From Limnobacter sp. MED105 (lineage in GTDB: Bacteria; Pseudomonadota; Gammaproteobacteria; Burkholderiales; Burkholderiaceae_B): a stretch of DNA of 64,000 nt. The stretch lies in assembly GCF_000170915.1 (NCBI RefSeq), contig NZ_ABCT01000007.1, positions 62,001 to 126,000 on the forward strand. The letters run 5' to 3'. The translations under genes were made by a program, and so were the position numbers. Below the pieces are notes generated by a model. The model was given only the letters and a program-made list of their open reading frames with translations, ran no database searches and was not told the DNA's origin. Numbering within the stretch: the first letter of the stretch is position 1; the number at the start of each line of letters is the position of its first letter. This document shows, in pieces, positions 4,992 through 58,234 of the stretch.

Positions 4992-5089
4992 CTGGCGGGC
5001 CTCCCCGCATGGCGTAGCGGCCAACCTGGTCAGGTCCGGAAGGAAGCAGCCACAACCGTGAAGTCAGTGCCGGGGTTCTGGCTCGCCTC
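4992..5089 (+). ncRNA. ffs: 4.5S RNA of the signal recognition particle
   Basis: Small bacterial SRP RNA that binds Ffh and targets nascent inner-membrane proteins. The near-invariant core (GGTCAGGTCCGGAAGGAAGC, starting at 5029) is present, including the GGAA tetraloop region. The ends pair: GGCGGGCC at 4994-5001 with GGCTCGCC at 5080-5087, eight pairs with one G-U. The position directly upstream of dnaX is common in proteobacteria. The ends are estimated from the helix. Confidence 0.95.
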
Positions 5090-5136
5090 TTAATTTGTTG
5101 GACACACCTGTGCACACAAACGTGGACCCACTCTGA

Positions 5137-7891: not shown

Positions 7892-7916
7892 TGTTTCGCA
7901 TGCACAAGTGCACATC

Positions 7917-9137
7917 ATGACCAATTCCCCTGAGCAATCGTCACCTGTTAACAACGGCCCATTGGCTGGCATCCGCGTACTTGAATTGGGTTCGCTGATT
8001 GCGGGGCCTTTTGCAAGCCGAATGCTGGGTGAATTCGGTGCCGAAGTGATCAAGGTTGAAACGCCCGGCACCGGCGACCCCATTCGCAAATGGCGTGTGC
8101 TGCACGAGGGCAACTCCCTGTGGTGGGCTGTGCAGGCCCGCAACAAAAAATCGATCACCCTGAACTTAAAAGCCGAAGAAGGGCTGGCTGTGTTGCGCAA
8201 GCTGATTGAAAGCGCCGACATGCTGGTCGAGAACTTTCGCCCGGGGCAACTTGAAAAATGGGGGCTGAGTCCTGAACAATTACAGGCCTTGAACCCTGGC
8301 CTGATTGTGGTGCGCTTGAGTGGCTATGGCCAAACCGGCCCTTACAAGGACCGCCCAGGTTTTGGTGCGATTGCTGAATCGATTGGGGGCATGCGTTTTT
8401 TAAGTGGCGACACCGATCGCCCGCCTGTGCGCGTGGGTATTTCCATTGGCGATTCTTTGGCTGGTTTGCATGCGGTAATCGGTGCGCTGATGGCCTTGCA
8501 GCATCGCCACAAAACAGGCAAGGGGCAAGTGGTGGACGTGGCCCTGTATGAATCGGTGTTCAACATGATGGAAAGTCTGTTGCCCGAGTACGACTTCGCA
8601 GGCGTGGTGCGCAAACGTTCGGGTGCCAGTTTGCCGGGTATTGTGCCGTCGAACACCTACACCTGCGGTTGTGGTGGATTCATTGTGATTGGTGGCAATG
8701 GCGATGCAATTTTCAAGCGCTTAATGATTGCGATTGGTCGAAGCGATTTTGCAGAAAACCCCGACATGGCCAGCAACGATGGCAGGGTTCGCCACACAGA
8801 GTTGATTGACGACACGATTGCCCAGTGGTGCAAAGAACGCAGCATTGATGAGGCACTTGAAGTGCTTGAAAAAGCAGATGTGCCTGTCAGCAAAATTTAC
8901 AGCATTGAAGACATTGTGCATGACCCCCAATTTGCGGCCCGCGGCATGATTGAAGAACATGCGTTTGGCGAAGACCGAACTTTGAAAGTACCGGGTATTG
9001 TGCCCAAGTTAAGCGATACGCCCGGGCAAACCCGTTGGCTTGGCCCCAAGCTGGGTGAGCACAATGCGCAGGTGCTAGAGGGGCTGGGTTATTCGGCTGA
9101 GGAGATTCAGCGCATGTTGGATGATGGCGTAATTTGA
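7917..9137 (+). CDS. Class III (CaiB/BaiF) CoA-transferase
   Basis: Formyl-CoA-transferase-like enzyme that moves CoA between carboxylic acids. Family marks are the N-terminal LAGIRVLELGSLIAGPFA, the VENFRPG motif, RLSGYGQTGPY and the catalytic aspartate in GISIGDSLAGLHAV (about residue 179). Length (406 residues with ATG 7917) is normal. A GTG at 7908 would add three residues; neither start has a strong ribosome site. Substrate cannot be told from sequence. It follows recR by 25 nt but has no functional link with it. Confidence 0.9.
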   Translation: MTNSPEQSSPVNNGPLAGIRVLELGSLIAGPFASRMLGEFGAEVIKVETPGTGDPIRKWRVLHEGNSLWWAVQARNKKSITLNLKAEEGLAVLRKLIESADMLVENFRPGQLEKWGLSPEQLQALNPGLIVVRLSGYGQTGPYKDRPGFGAIAESIGGMRFLSGDTDRPPVRVGISIGDSLAGLHAVIGALMALQHRHKTGKGQVVDVALYESVFNMMESLLPEYDFAGVVRKRSGASLPGIVPSNTYTCGCGGFIVIGGNGDAIFKRLMIAIGRSDFAENPDMASNDGRVRHTELIDDTIAQWCKERSIDEALEVLEKADVPVSKIYSIEDIVHDPQFAARGMIEEHAFGEDRTLKVPGIVPKLSDTPGQTRWLGPKLGEHNAQVLEGLGYSAEEIQRMLDDGVI

Positions 9138-9181: not shown

Positions 9182-9626
9182 GCAGTGCATCCCTCATTCT
9201 GCCTTGATCAAGTCCAATTCCTCGGTGTTGAATCTTGCTTGGGGCATGCGAAACGCAAAAGCGTCTTCGCATCGACCTTGCAGGTCGCCCCTCGCTTCGA
9301 ATCAAACCGGGCGACTTGATCTTGAATCGGCAGAACGATGCGATGCTGCTGCAAATCTTCGCGGGCTGACCAATCAACTCCCGCCGGTTAAGAGATGGCA
9401 GTGACTTAATCCGCATCGGAGCAGCATGTCGCAAGTCATTAGACCGTTTCTCGCACTCGCAAAGATCGCTTTGCCGTCCTTCCGCCTTCAAGAAAGCCTG
9501 CCCGTTTGAACTCACACGCCACGTTCGGCTGTAAGCCGACACCGAGTTCGGCCATCAGTTTTGCCGAATCTCGGTGAGTCAGTGTGAATTCAATAAGGGG
9601 AATTCAGGCTTTCTGGCGGAGGAGGG
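9182..9626 (-). repeat. Dispersed structured repeat, copy 1 (inverted relative to copy 2 at 56502-56868)
   Basis: This fills the 532-nt gap between the CoA-transferase gene and tal. Read on the minus strand it aligns with 56502-56868 plus. Shared blocks are the GCCAGAAA..CTG start, a two-hairpin block, a long run around GTGAATTCAAACGGGCAGG (here GTGAGTTC), a central part with an insertion in this copy, and the block GATGCGAAGACGC..TGCGTTTCGCATGCCCCAAGC. Hairpin A pairs 9540-9552 with 9563-9576 (CACCGAGTTCGGC, one bulged T, 10-nt loop). Hairpin B pairs TCGGCT (9525-9530) with AGCCGA (9534-9539). No transposase is encoded. A minus-strand reading frame (9159-9542) crosses it, but I do not call it a gene. 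Confidence 0.75.
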
Positions 9627-9669
9627 CATGCGACTTTGCGAATGTCTGGTTAAAAACCTTCCCGCAAGT

Positions 9670-10620
9670 TTACGCTTTCAACAACCCATCCAGCGTAACC
9701 GAGTCTTTCACAAACGCTCGAATGCCTTCCGCAAGTTTTTCAGTACCCATGGCATCGGCATTCAGTTCAAAGCGAAATGCCGCCTCGCCGTCTGGGAATG
9801 TCTCACGCGGTTGGGCAAGTGCCCAGTCAGCGTTCAACTCAACATTCAATGGCGTATCGTCTGCCCGCAGTTCGCCCAGCAATTCAGGGCTGATGGTCAG
9901 CAGATCGCAGCCCGCAAGCGCCTTGATTTGCCCCGCATTGCGAAAGCTGGCACCCATCACCTCTGTGCGAATTTCATTTTGTTTGTAATAGGCATAAATA
10001 CGGCGCACCGATTGCACGCCAGGGTCGTTTGCGCCTGCATTGGCTGCTTCATCCCAATTGCTACCTGCTGATTTCTTGTACCAGTCGTAAATTCGACCCA
10101 CAAAGGGCGAAATCAATTGAACACCTGCTTTGGCGCAGGCATGTGCCTGAATGGGTGAAAACAGCAGGGTAAGGTTGCAGTGAATGCCCTCTGCTTCCAG
10201 CGCCTTTGCGGCCTGAATGCCTTCCCAGGTGGAAGCAATTTTGATCAGCAGGCGCTTTTGAGTGTCAATGCCTTCAGCCCGGTACAAAGACACAATGCGG
10301 TTGGCGCGGGCTATGGTTGCTTCGGTGTCAAAGCTAAGCCTTGCATCCACTTCAGTGGAAACGCGACCAGGAATAATTTTCAGGATTTCAGTGCCAAAGG
10401 CCACCAGCAGGCGATCAGTTTGCAGCTCAAGCGGCTCATGACCAAACTTGATCTTGATTTGCTCCAGCAAGGGCAAGTATTGTGGTTTTTGAACTGCTTT
10501 TAAAATTAGCGAAGGGTTGGTGGTGGCATCTTGGGGAAGAAAGGCGGCAATTGCCTGAAAATCACCCGTATCAGCCACCACAGTGGTGGCTTGTTTCAGT
10601 TGTTCTAGTGCGTTGCTCAT
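9670..10620 (-). CDS. tal: Transaldolase
   Basis: Class I transaldolase of the non-oxidative pentose phosphate pathway, 316 residues from the ATG at 10620 ([10 protein letters not shown]), the start that matches TalB. The Schiff-base lysine is in [12 protein letters not shown] (K127). [15 protein letters not shown] and the phosphate-binding TNPSL motif are also present. A start at 10644 would add eight residues not typical of the family. It is a single-gene unit, convergent with the intergenic repeat. Confidence 0.95.
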
Positions 10621-10747
10621 GTCTTGATGGTGGCGAAAATTCAACGAAGTACGGCCCAGTATAGGCGTTTAAGGCGTTTATTTGATGAATGAAATAGTAT
10701 CCTTGAGTCAGGAATTAAAAAAACACAACAAACGATGAGTACTCGCC

Positions 10748-45201: not shown

Positions 45202-45209
45202 TTCTTGAA

Positions 45210-45253
45210 GTGAGGACGACCTCACCGCTCAACCTTCGATCGGGGACGGCCCC
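45210..45253 (+). promoter_or_regulatory. Guanidine-II (mini-ykkC) riboswitch
   Basis: Two small hairpins with ACGR loops: GTGAGG-ACGA-CCTCAC (45210-45225) with GTGAGG paired to CCTCAC, and GGGG-ACGG-CCCC (45242-45253). That is the mini-ykkC layout, a guanidine-binding RNA that turns on guanidine exporter genes. The ribosome site GGGAG (45266-45270) and a CATTT/AAATG stem (45252-45265) lie directly behind, and the next gene is a SugE/Gdx exporter. Motif, spacing and gene context agree. Confidence 0.93.
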
Positions 45254-45275
45254 ATTTAGTTAAATGGGAGTTGTC

Positions 45276-55000: not shown

Positions 55001-56023
55001 GGCGCTTACAAAGTGGCCAAATCGCTGGGCATGTTGAACAAGCAAACAGCCAAGCCACCTGCCACGGTGGGCAAGGCACCGATTCGTGAGCAGGTGATTC
55101 ACTTCATCAACAAGCCCATGCCCGGTGGTTTGCCCAAGAAAACGGCGCGCGCGCTGCTCGACATTGAGAACAGCGATTACGTGCCAGTGATCCGCAACCC
55201 GAAAACAACGCAAGCCGATACGGAAGCTGTGTTCTACTTCCCCGGTTGTGGTTCCGAACGTCTGTACAGTCAGGTGGGTTTGGCCACGCAAGCCATGTTG
55301 TGGAATGTGGGCGTACAAACCGTGTTGCCGCCAGGTTATTTGTGCTGCGGCTACCCGCAGCGTGGGGCAGGGCAGTACGACAAAGCCGAGAAAATGATCA
55401 CCGACAACCGTGTGTTGTTCCATCGCGTGGCCAACACACTGAACTACCTCGACATCAAAACCGTGGTGGTCAGCTGTGGCACGTGTTACGACCAGTTGCA
55501 GGGTTATGAGTTCGAGAAAATTTTCCCGGGCTGCCGCATCATCGACATTCATGAATTCCTCATGGAAAAAGGTGTGAAGCTGGACAACGTCACGGGTACG
55601 CAGTACATGTACCACGACCCTTGCCACACGCCCATGAAAACTTACGACCCCTTGAAGGTTGTGAACCAGTTGATGAACAGCGAGTTGCAAGGCCAGAACA
55701 TCACGAAAAATGATCGTTGCTGCGGCGAGTCGGGCACATTTGGTGTGTCGCGCCCAGACGTGGCCACGCAGGTTCGATTCCGCAAGGAAGAGGAAATGCG
55801 CAAGGGTGCCGACAAGCTGCGTGAGAAAGCGCCACAGGCCGATGTGAAAATTTTGACCAGCTGCCCGTCTTGCTTGCAAGGTTTGAGCCGCTACAGCGAC
55901 GACGCCAATGTGGATGCCGATTACATTGTGGTTGAAATTGCCAAGAATGTACTGGGCAAGGAATGGCTGCAAAACTACGTGAAAGAAGCCAATGACGGCG
56001 GTATCGAGCGCATCCTTGTCTGA
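52043..56023 (+). CDS. Large FAD/Fe-S oxidoreductase with DUF3683 (D-2-hydroxyacid dehydrogenase-like)
   Basis: 1326 residues. Parts in order: DUF3683 N-terminal region (about 1-180), FAD-binding PCMH domain (about 190-380, with [15 protein letters not shown] at about 219), D-lactate/glycolate dehydrogenase C-terminal domain (to about 810, with [14 protein letters not shown] and GEHGIGITK), two 4Fe-4S motifs ([11 protein letters not shown] at about 854, [12 protein letters not shown] at about 916), and a CCG heterodisulfide-reductase-like half ([30 protein letters not shown]). It thus carries FAD and iron-sulfur electron transfer in one chain. The physiological substrate, likely a D-2-hydroxyacid, is not certain. 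Overlaps HIT by 32 nt. Confidence 0.9.
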
Positions 56024-56474
56024 TTCCGTTTCACAAAATCCCAATTGCCCCCTGTGTGCCACACCGGGCGGTGATTGGGTGTTCAATTGCAGCAAGTTCC
56101 GTGTGATTGAGGCAGTCGATGCAGATTATCCCGGCTTTCTTCGCCTGGTCTGGAACGACCATGTGCGGGAGTTTTCCGATTTAAACCGTGAAGATCGCAT
56201 GCTGTGCATGGATGCGGTGGTGTTGCTTGAACAATTCGTGCTTCGCGTATTTAAAGCCGACAAAGCGAATATTGCAACGCTGGGTAACGTGGTGCCGCAT
56301 TTGCACTGGCACGTCATTCCCCGTTTTACAGACGACAAACACTTTCCTGCGCCCGTGTGGGCTGCAGCCAAACCGGGGGTGTCGCTGTCGCCCCGCCAGC
56401 AGTGGGTGCTTGATTCAAAGCCAAAATGGATGTTGGCGCTGCGTGCTGAATTGCTGGCAGCATTTCCGGGCTGA
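55992..56474 (+). CDS. HIT-family hydrolase
   Basis: 160 residues. The histidine triad is in [13 protein letters not shown]; the upstream [21 protein letters not shown] helix is typical of short HIT proteins that hydrolyse nucleotide phosphoramidates or diadenosine phosphates. ATG 55992 starts 32 nt before the stop of the upstream gene; a TTG at 56016 would overlap by only 8 nt. Cotranscription is likely. Confidence 0.88.
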
Positions 56475-56501
56475 GTCGCTTCGCTCGCTCAGGCGCATAC
56501 C

Positions 56502-56868
56502 CTCTCGCGCCAGAAAACCTGTTTTTCCCTTTTTGAGATTCACCCTGACTCACCTCGCTCGGCAAAAAAGCGGGCCGAGTCTCGGTGCCGGCCTTTGGCC
56601 GACCGTGGCGGGTGAATTCAAACGGGCAGGTTTTCTTGATCGGCGCAGCGAGGATATTGCTACCTTCGCAAGCGAAGCAACGCGCTGACGATTGGCGGTT
56701 TGTGTGCTGCATCGCGTTGCCGGATTTGCAAGACTTCCCGGCGGCTTCGCAGCGCGGGGCGATTCCGTCAGGAATCGATGCGAAGACGCCACTGCGTTTC
56801 GCATGCCCCAAGCCAGAAGCATCAAGCCGGAATGGAAGTCTTGCTAAGGCGAGGTGATGTGGCATTCA
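56502..56868 (+). repeat. Dispersed structured repeat, copy 2
   Basis: Fills most of the 401-nt gap between the HIT gene and phoR, aligning with the minus strand of 9182-9626. Hairpin A inner stem is CTCGGC (56558-56563) with GCCGAG (56574-56579), in copy 1 TTCGGC with GCCGAA. Hairpin B is CGGCC (56589-56593) with GGCCG (56597-56601), in copy 1 TCGGCT with AGCCGA. Each hairpin has a T-A pair in copy 1 replaced by C-G here. A plus-strand reading frame (56585-56857, 90 codons from GTG) matches the first residues of the frame in copy 1 (WRVxSNGQxFL), perhaps only because the DNA is conserved. Confidence 0.75.
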
Positions 56869-56875
56869 AACCGAA

Positions 56876-58234
56876 CTAAGCGCCAACTACCGTCGTTGCT
56901 TCAGCCAAAGCCGCTTTCGAAGCAGCGGCACCAGCCTTCGCCAGCGGCATCAGAATGGTGAAGGTACTGCCTGCATTTGGTCGGCTTTGAATGTCCAGTT
57001 CGCCATCGTGGCGTTGCACCACATGTTTCACAATCGCCAAGCCCAAACCCGTGCCGCCACTTTCTCTTGAACGGCTGCGGTCTACACGGTAAAAACGCTC
57101 AGTCAAACGCGGAATGTGTTCTGCCGAAATACCAATGCCGGTGTCGCGCACCACAAAAGCGGCACAGGCTTTGCCAATTTCGTTTTCTGAGCGTCGAAGC
57201 GTAATCGTGATGTTTCCTTTCTCCGGTGTGTAGCGCACCGCATTGGTCACGATATTCGAGAATGCGCTGAAAATTTCAGCCGAGTTGCCAAAGCCCATCA
57301 GGCCCTTTTCAACATCCACAGAAATATTGTGTTTTCCGGCCGACAGTTGTTGTGCTTCATCGCCTGTTTTTTGGGCAATTCCGCTCAGGTCAACTGGCTC
57401 GCCACCTTCGCCTGCGTTGGGTGAAGACTCCAGCGCCGACAAGGCCAGCAGGTCTTCCACTAGGTTTTGCATGCGATTGGCCTGGGTGTACATCAAATTC
57501 AGGTATTCGGTTTGCTGTTCTTTGCTCAACGGCAGGTCCCGGAATGTTTCCAGAAAACCGCTCAGCACAGTCAACGGTGTTTTCAGCTCATGTGACACAT
57601 TGGCAATGAAATCGCGTCGCATTCGTTCCAGTTTTTCAACCTGGGTGACATCGCGAGACAACACCAGCATTTGTTGGTCGCCGTAGCTGACCAATTGCAC
57701 CGACAAAACCTTGCTTCGGCTGCGTGGCGCAGTCATGATCAAGGGTTGCTCCCAAGAGCGGCTGCGAATGTATTTGGAGAAGTTTGGGTTGCGAACCAGG
57801 TTAATGAGGGGCTGCCCTATGTCACTGCCCAATTTCAAGCCCAGGTGGTCTTGAGCTGTGTCGTTGCACCAGGAAATGTGCCCCTCGGAATCAAGCGTGA
57901 CTACCCCGTCGGGCAGGGCTTGCGCCGCGGTGCGGAATGACACCAGTGCATTGGTGAGTGCCTGTTGTTGACGTTGGTGTAAGCGCAGGTAGCGAAACAG
58001 CTTTGCGGCAAGGTCATCCCACCAGCCCGACACGTCGGGCACGTTTTCAACCTTGAAGTTGTCCAGCCATTCGATAATTCGAAGGCCGGAGCGCACATGC
58101 AGGGCATAAATGAAAAGCGAGGCCAAGATAGACCCCGCCACTGCGCCTTTGTGGCCAGCAACCATTTGACCCACGATGGCGGCTGCACCCAGCACCATGG
58201 CCAACAGTATCAATCGAAAAAAGATGAACGCCAT
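56876..58234 (-). CDS. phoR: Phosphate regulon sensor kinase PhoR
   Basis: 452 residues. Two N-terminal spans (about 1-20 and 25-46), a PAS-like region (about 95-200), HisKA with FIANVSHELKTPLTVLSGF (His near 214), and HATPase motifs FSNIVTNAVRYTP, DTGIGIS and GTGLGLAIVKH. Architecture and position behind phoB (40-nt gap) identify PhoR, which phosphorylates PhoB under low phosphate. The C-terminal ALA-rich tail is variable. Confidence 0.93.
   Translation of the reverse strand: MAFIFFRLILLAMVLGAAAIVGQMVAGHKGAVAGSILASLFIYALHVRSGLRIIEWLDNFKVENVPDVSGWWDDLAAKLFRYLRLHQRQQQALTNALVSFRTAAQALPDGVVTLDSEGHISWCNDTAQDHLGLKLGSDIGQPLINLVRNPNFSKYIRSRSWEQPLIMTAPRSRSKVLSVQLVSYGDQQMLVLSRDVTQVEKLERMRRDFIANVSHELKTPLTVLSGFLETFRDLPLSKEQQTEYLNLMYTQANRMQNLVEDLLALSALESSPNAGEGGEPVDLSGIAQKTGDEAQQLSAGKHNISVDVEKGLMGFGNSAEIFSAFSNIVTNAVRYTPEKGNITITLRRSENEIGKACAAFVVRDTGIGISAEHIPRLTERFYRVDRSRSRESGGTGLGLAIVKHVVQRHDGELDIQSRPNAGSTFTILMPLAKAGAAASKAALAEATTVVGA

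Follow-up and report, generated by a model that had tools for sequence, protein, structure and literature searches.

What kind of element are the two diverged, inverted repeats that occupy separate intergenic gaps of the window, the 64,000-nucleotide stretch of Limnobacter sp. MED105 analysed here (G000:C40:62001-126000)? A first-pass annotation had described them as an inverted pair with covarying hairpins and had proposed either a structured RNA or a non-autonomous mobile element. The inverted pair is real, and the picture of just two copies gives way to a much larger family: BLAST returned 44 matches in the draft genome for copy 1 and 37 for copy 2. Our analyses suggest that the repeats are probably non-autonomous, REPIN-like mobile DNA hairpins of Limnobacter, spread in trans.

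Each window copy consists of two modules, A and B, of about 160-200 bp each and placed tail to tail (Table 1); the usual unit of the Limnobacter family likewise has two modules of 150-200 bp, inverted relative to each other and tail to tail. The repeats had been correctly located at 56502-56868 and 9182-9626, but their extent was understated, as the hairpins reach slightly further (56478-56864 and 9182-9644). The central insertion said to distinguish the copies proved to be the length of the spacer between the modules (26 bp versus 101 bp). Of the two covarying hairpins that had been proposed, the compensated differences hold, and direct reading of both copies gives three of them: AGAAAACC/GGTTTTCT versus AGAAAGCC/GGCTTTCT; TTCACC/GGTGAA versus TTCACA/TGTGAG, where the latter arm gains one T-G pair; and GGCC-TTT-GGCC versus GGCT-TAC-AGCC. 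The second half, however, is a separate module that folds on the opposite strand. When single-stranded DNA folding was computed, four module-holding stretches, one of which (56478-56760) covers copy 1 module A plus the start of module B, each beat 200 of 200 shuffles (z -4.8, -9.4, -5.0 and -5.3).

Table 1. Modules, spacers and neighbouring genes of the two copies, in window positions unless a contig is named.
Feature	Position	Strand	Description
Copy 1, module A	56478..56678	+	branched hairpin; outer arms GCTTCGCT/AGCGAAGC; conserved base AGAAAACCTG/CAGGTTTTCT; bulge TTGA
Copy 1, R1 match in module A	56503-56648 (G000:C40:118504-118649)		
Copy 1, inter-module spacer	56679..56704	.	26 bp
Copy 1, module B	56705..56864	- (sense strand minus)	branched hairpin; stem CAAGACTTCC/GGAAGTCTTG
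Copy 2, module A	9454..9644	-	fold as in copy 1 module A; base AGAAAGCCTG/CAGGCTTTCT
Copy 2, inter-module spacer	9353..9453	.	101 bp
Copy 2, module B	9182..9352	+ (sense strand plus)	branched hairpin
Gene upstream of copy 1	55992..56474	+	3' end towards module A; presumably a HIT-like protein
Gene downstream of copy 1	56876..58234	-	convergent; presumably a PhoR-like sensor histidine kinase
Gene left of copy 2	7908..9137	+	convergent; presumably CoA-transferase-like
Gene right of copy 2	9670..10644	-	convergent; presumably transaldolase-like

Module A is built from outer complementary arms, the stem AGAAAACCTG/CAGGTTTTCT, CCC/GGG, a further stem, and a junction that carries one long branch with an A-rich loop and one short branch. 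On the 3' side the TTGA bulge lies just outside the stem AGAAAACCTG/CAGGTTTTCT; a five-base loop is confined to the 5' side. Subfamilies of A differ by compensated changes in their stems, and the outer arms of modules vary in sequence but remain complementary. A third module family, C (consensus from 22 stretches, 17 distinct sequences), also serves as a partner of A modules. B and C have largely different sequences from A, yet they form a similar branched hairpin. We rejected the idea that the outer arms are independent REP-like elements: of 133 arm matches, 118 have a listed module no more than 70 bp away and are in inverted orientation, six more are at up to 500 bp or in an odd arrangement, and nine stand alone, two of them adjoining modules absent from the list and seven looking like chance. 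At one locus (L004:1631-1756) an A module has its outer 5' arm in three tandem copies, which follow a period of 42 bases and fall in identity from one to the next (100, 86 and 64%). Elsewhere (L022, L026 and L027), A2 modules seem by eye to be enclosed upstream by C-like arms CTGAACTTG...CAAGTTCAG, which gives the impression of one hairpin nested inside another.

Across the 30 A modules of the MED105 genome, 95.8% of 1049 cells are paired, and 16 of the 35 pairs are altered on both sides (79 cells), a level reached by none of 500 shuffles; sliding the pairing partner destroys these values. The proposed constraint on folding is thereby supported. The number of further pair types does not stand out (20, where shuffles average 21.5). 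More than one Watson-Crick type occurs at 5 of 38 pairs in B (21 sequences) and at 1 of 54 in C (17 sequences); these families vary too little, so the covariation claim is one about A alone. Unpaired motifs persist as well, the A-rich loop in all 30 modules, CTCA in 29 and TCTTGA in 25. A modules from several genomes were drawn from 100 of at least 104 contig stretches picked by a 20-base core pattern, and since that pattern spans the start of the TTGA bulge, conservation of the bulge is biased in those loci and is better judged from the 25 of 30 in the MED105 set.

The suggested search of the genome and its relatives with a covariance model found many more copies. The model of module A, R1, gave 46 matches in the MED105 genome and 3-88 in 11 other Limnobacter genomes; as at most 150 candidates were scored per genome, the twelve counts are lower bounds (at least 46, 50, 59, 39, 41, 19, 22, 43, 87, 32, 88 and 3). 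R1 had no match in four of the 16 Limnobacter genomes, namely G014, G015 and the incomplete G002 and G010. Under stricter filters, an order-wide sample of 200 genomes yielded R1 matches only in MED105 and G004, both Limnobacter, and BLAST of copy 1 found 12 of 40 relatives, MED105 included, and none of 24 genomes outside the genus. At least 104 contig stretches carry the 20-base core motif; those listed bear the name Limnobacter or belong to unclassified Burkholderiales or Gammaproteobacteria MAGs. Searches of plasmid and viral collections gave no match. The family is confined to Limnobacter among the genomes searched. A midpoint-rooted CoA-transferase tree groups 11 module-rich genomes at a starred fork, apart from G014, G015 and G004; in the weaker transaldolase tree, also midpoint-rooted, the corresponding fork is unstarred and G014 falls inside.

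Comparison of orthologous sites shows that modules come and go. Empty sites had been proposed as a check, and they exist for both window copies: the copy 1 site lacks a module in G007, with a 27-base unaligned gap where the element would be, and the copy 2 site lacks one in G011 and G012, where the two convergent genes nearly touch, and in G015, where a short gap remains. G005 and G013 retain small relics at the copy 2 site and G007 a similar short stretch, which indicates that some between-species differences are deletions. At shared sites elsewhere, modules are present in some species and absent in others, and at L183, L132 and L068 differing module types occupy one site across species. When the best ortholog was compared with the best of equally many random copies from the same genome, the ortholog was closer for 0.50 of 163 modules (0.44-0.56 across 200 draws). 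The result shows turnover, whether through movement or through conversion, and homogenisation by gene conversion would yield similar numbers. For 18 of the 163 modules the best ortholog is below 0.70 while a paralog is at 0.85 or more; 52 have an ortholog at 0.90 or more, so many copies have been inherited in place. The equal-number test replaces a plain nearest-neighbour tally (82 same-genome, 60 other and 21 ortholog; n=163), which favours whichever class is more numerous. Separately, a 1.34 kb segment (L148:1830-3169) holding what we take to be a hydrolase-like gene is present in one species and absent from another (L160), and its edges overlap by about 10 bases.

Modules sit at gene 3' ends. 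With genes called by a crude longest-ORF procedure and the best 150 of 184 R1 matches considered, the 75 element-bearing gene pairs comprised 39 convergent, 32 co-directional and 4 divergent pairs, compared with 68, 309 and 101 among 478 other pairs. Among 76 clusters scored in the same set, all 33 two-module clusters were tail to tail. In two species, two small genes lie between single A modules beside another gene (L124:2516-3590 and L143:1954-3178); they are presumably an NlpC/P60-like gene and a putative lipoprotein gene, next to what looks like a mutase.

The pattern of imperfect pairs bears on whether the fold is kept as RNA. A structure formed by RNA from one strand accepts G-U and not A-C. 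We therefore counted departures in columns that are at least 70% Watson-Crick, and treated the RNase P RNA of the same genus alike as a control. The control gave 47 G-T and 5 A-C departures (15 of 16 genus genomes, one truncated match omitted). The 149 distinct A modules gave 44 and 62, module B 8 and 6, and module C 7 and 6; Fisher comparisons with RNase P returned p values of 1.7e-9 for A, about 0.008 for B and about 0.006 for C, which, like those for gene position, are indications because the sequences are related and not independent. Raw G-T counts for B (43) and C (64), with 6 A-C each, were set aside, as they come from columns that are mostly not Watson-Crick. The absence of a G-T excess implies that what is preserved is a fold in DNA or on both strands, and not that of an ordinary one-strand RNA; the 30 MED105 A modules, with 1 G-T and 13 A-C, lean even towards the complementary strand. 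Beyond these repeats, the comparison is a cheap test usable for any covarying repeat, one that distinguishes a structure kept in one-strand RNA from one kept in DNA or on both strands. In other parts of the window, Rfam matches above gathering score mark a Guanidine-II riboswitch and a small SRP RNA (45208-45254 and 4994-5090).

Of the two natures that had been offered for the repeats, the mobile element is therefore supported, being multicopy, covarying, dimorphic at orthologous sites and subject to turnover, and the structured RNA is not. A structured RNA transcribed from one strand would account for the strong covariation of A and for its conserved unpaired bases, but it is highly improbable given the RNase P contrast, RNA energies that favour folding of the sense over the antisense strand in only 4 of the 30 MED105 A modules, and Rfam scans that found no match at the window repeats and none in six element loci even with E as high as 1. 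It is also possible, though unlikely, that the modules are bidirectional transcription terminators or mRNA 3'-end stabilisers selected by the host. The base stem is GC-rich, with AAAA before and TTTT after on both strands, and the main A subfamily carries CAGG-TTTTCT on both strands. The convergent bias and the tail-to-tail pairs fit such a role, as does the symmetric pairing, since a need for pairing on both strands would remove G-U; stem-loops and repeats also concentrate at gene 3' ends in other bacteria (PMC1590033). Yet module B has no T run, module A has no match in four members of the genus (two incomplete) and three matches in another, and termination does not need elaborate conserved tops. 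Nor do modules that R1 lists singly beside co-directional genes follow the direction of those genes, 8 lying with and 7 against them (n=15, several having a B or C partner outside the R1 matches). A terminator scan of two window regions found 1 against 1.0 and 1 against 0.6 expected, but it allowed only loops of 3-8 and was thus blind to the module stems.

Another reading needs no selection at all: the modules would be dead palindromic debris in which template switching during replication, together with gene conversion, restores pairing. Template switching is reported to give rise to hairpins with compensatory changes and to maintain them (PMC8794818). Adjacent pairs are sometimes altered together, as in TG/CA to GC/GC in 11 of the 30 MED105 A modules, and there is no G-U preference. 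This process predicts symmetric arms, whereas the modules keep their one-sided internal loop, the TTGA bulge, the CTCA junction and the A-rich loop, and A, B and C share similar branched hairpins in spite of largely different sequences. We consider debris of this kind distinctly improbable, less so than a one-strand RNA. Mobile hairpins remain our preferred reading, and the size, confinement to the genus among the genomes searched, fold, covariation of A, placement at gene 3' ends, presence or absence and turnover between species reported here are direct observations on the family.

The annotation had seen no transposase and no target duplication, and we found neither. RAYT or other Y1 transposases (PF01797) are absent from MED105 and were found only in G008 among 16 genomes (control matches in 5 of 14), so they were rejected as the mobiliser. 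No integron integrase (TIGR02249) exceeded the cut-off in MED105; two of 16 genomes, G009 and G001, had matches above it, and G014, which has no modules, and G008 had substantial partial matches below it. Reverse transcriptase (PF00078) is not in MED105 and occurs in 5 of 16 genomes, including 4 of the 12 with modules; an origin as a group II intron or retron product is not supported. None of the three tracks module presence, and movement by a trans-acting enzyme is accordingly something that we infer. By eye, no mobilising gene was recognised next to modules in the 22 largest clusters from 321 flanking proteins called by the crude longest-ORF procedure; we take these clusters to be household genes. 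Three module pairs 1-1.8 kb apart (L143, L124 and L006/L025) were considered as autonomous copies, and by eye they hold ordinary-looking genes. At the junctions read there was no clean target duplication, the outer boundary is not uniform, and precise ends of the insertions were not found. Limnobacter does appear to have a chromosomal integron, with an integrase match that is full-length in G009, split in G001 and partial in G014 and G008. Near integrases in three genomes lie attC-like sites with classical boxes (L235, at G009:C1:2430000-2446000, L236 and L237), and R1 gave no match below E 0.28 in these loci.

If the modules are mobile, copies would be spread by an enzyme acting in trans on a folded single strand or cruciform, which it might recognise at the conserved base and the junction. 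Selection on the source copies that are mobilised would then keep the fold while the stems drift, and gene 3' ends may be places where insertions are tolerated or targeted. It is tempting to go further and speculate that Limnobacter has an undescribed recombination system that recognises three-branched folded single-stranded DNA or cruciforms at base, bulge and junction, mostly independently of sequence. It would insert copies of these hairpins in trans at gene 3' ends and inside earlier copies, and would need no Y1 transposase, integron integrase or reverse transcriptase of the tested kinds; this fuller scheme is tentative, and we would not expect all of it to hold.

Among the open-licence papers listed by a literature search, none describes this family to judge by titles and the starts of abstracts. 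Comparison with known systems places the modules near several of them. MITEs derived from DDE transposons are short and non-autonomous with inverted ends, and so are the Limnobacter modules, but these have no constant terminal inverted repeat, no target duplication at the junctions read and no parent transposon recognisable by eye between distant modules or in the 22 flanking clusters. Integron attC sites are imperfect palindromes with a conserved base and a variable top, and at the base they carry boxes of consensus RYYYAAC ... GTTRRRY. Paired R boxes occur in 0 of 143 Limnobacter modules, 60-base flanks included, which rules out attC identity, and integrase does not accompany the modules across the 16 genomes.

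A further group is that of longer palindromic repeats between genes. The Ype and RU elements correspond to YPAL and ERIC. RU-1, RU-2 and RU-3 are mobile intergenic units of 103-168 bp (PMC2759123), and Ype elements exceed REPs in size and lie near gene 3' ends (PMC1590033). Limnobacter modules are likewise long, intergenic and palindromic; they differ in being branched and in forming tail-to-tail pairs of different module types. Ype and RU are set apart here by their descriptions, with Rfam scans as the sequence comparison.

The last comparison is with REPs and REPINs. REPINs are inverted REP doublets that form hairpins, show compensatory changes and are linked to RAYTs (PMC3116915), and the REPs with GTAG or CGTC tags occur chiefly where neighbouring genes are co-directional or convergent (PMC3733652). 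Unlike REPs and REPINs of 20-40 bp, the Limnobacter modules measure 150-200 bp (160-200 bp in the window) and are branched. They carry no constant tag (near the module base, GTAG in 1 and CGTC in 29 of 143), and a RAYT (Y1_Tnp) gene is present in only one of 16 Limnobacter genomes, which is not that of MED105. Like REPINs, they are extragenic, numerous in each genome, and built of doublets in inverted orientation, which form hairpins and show compensatory changes. If our reading is correct, large branched mobile DNA hairpins exist in genomes that mostly do without the transposase invoked for REPINs, and a hunt for the enzyme becomes possible.
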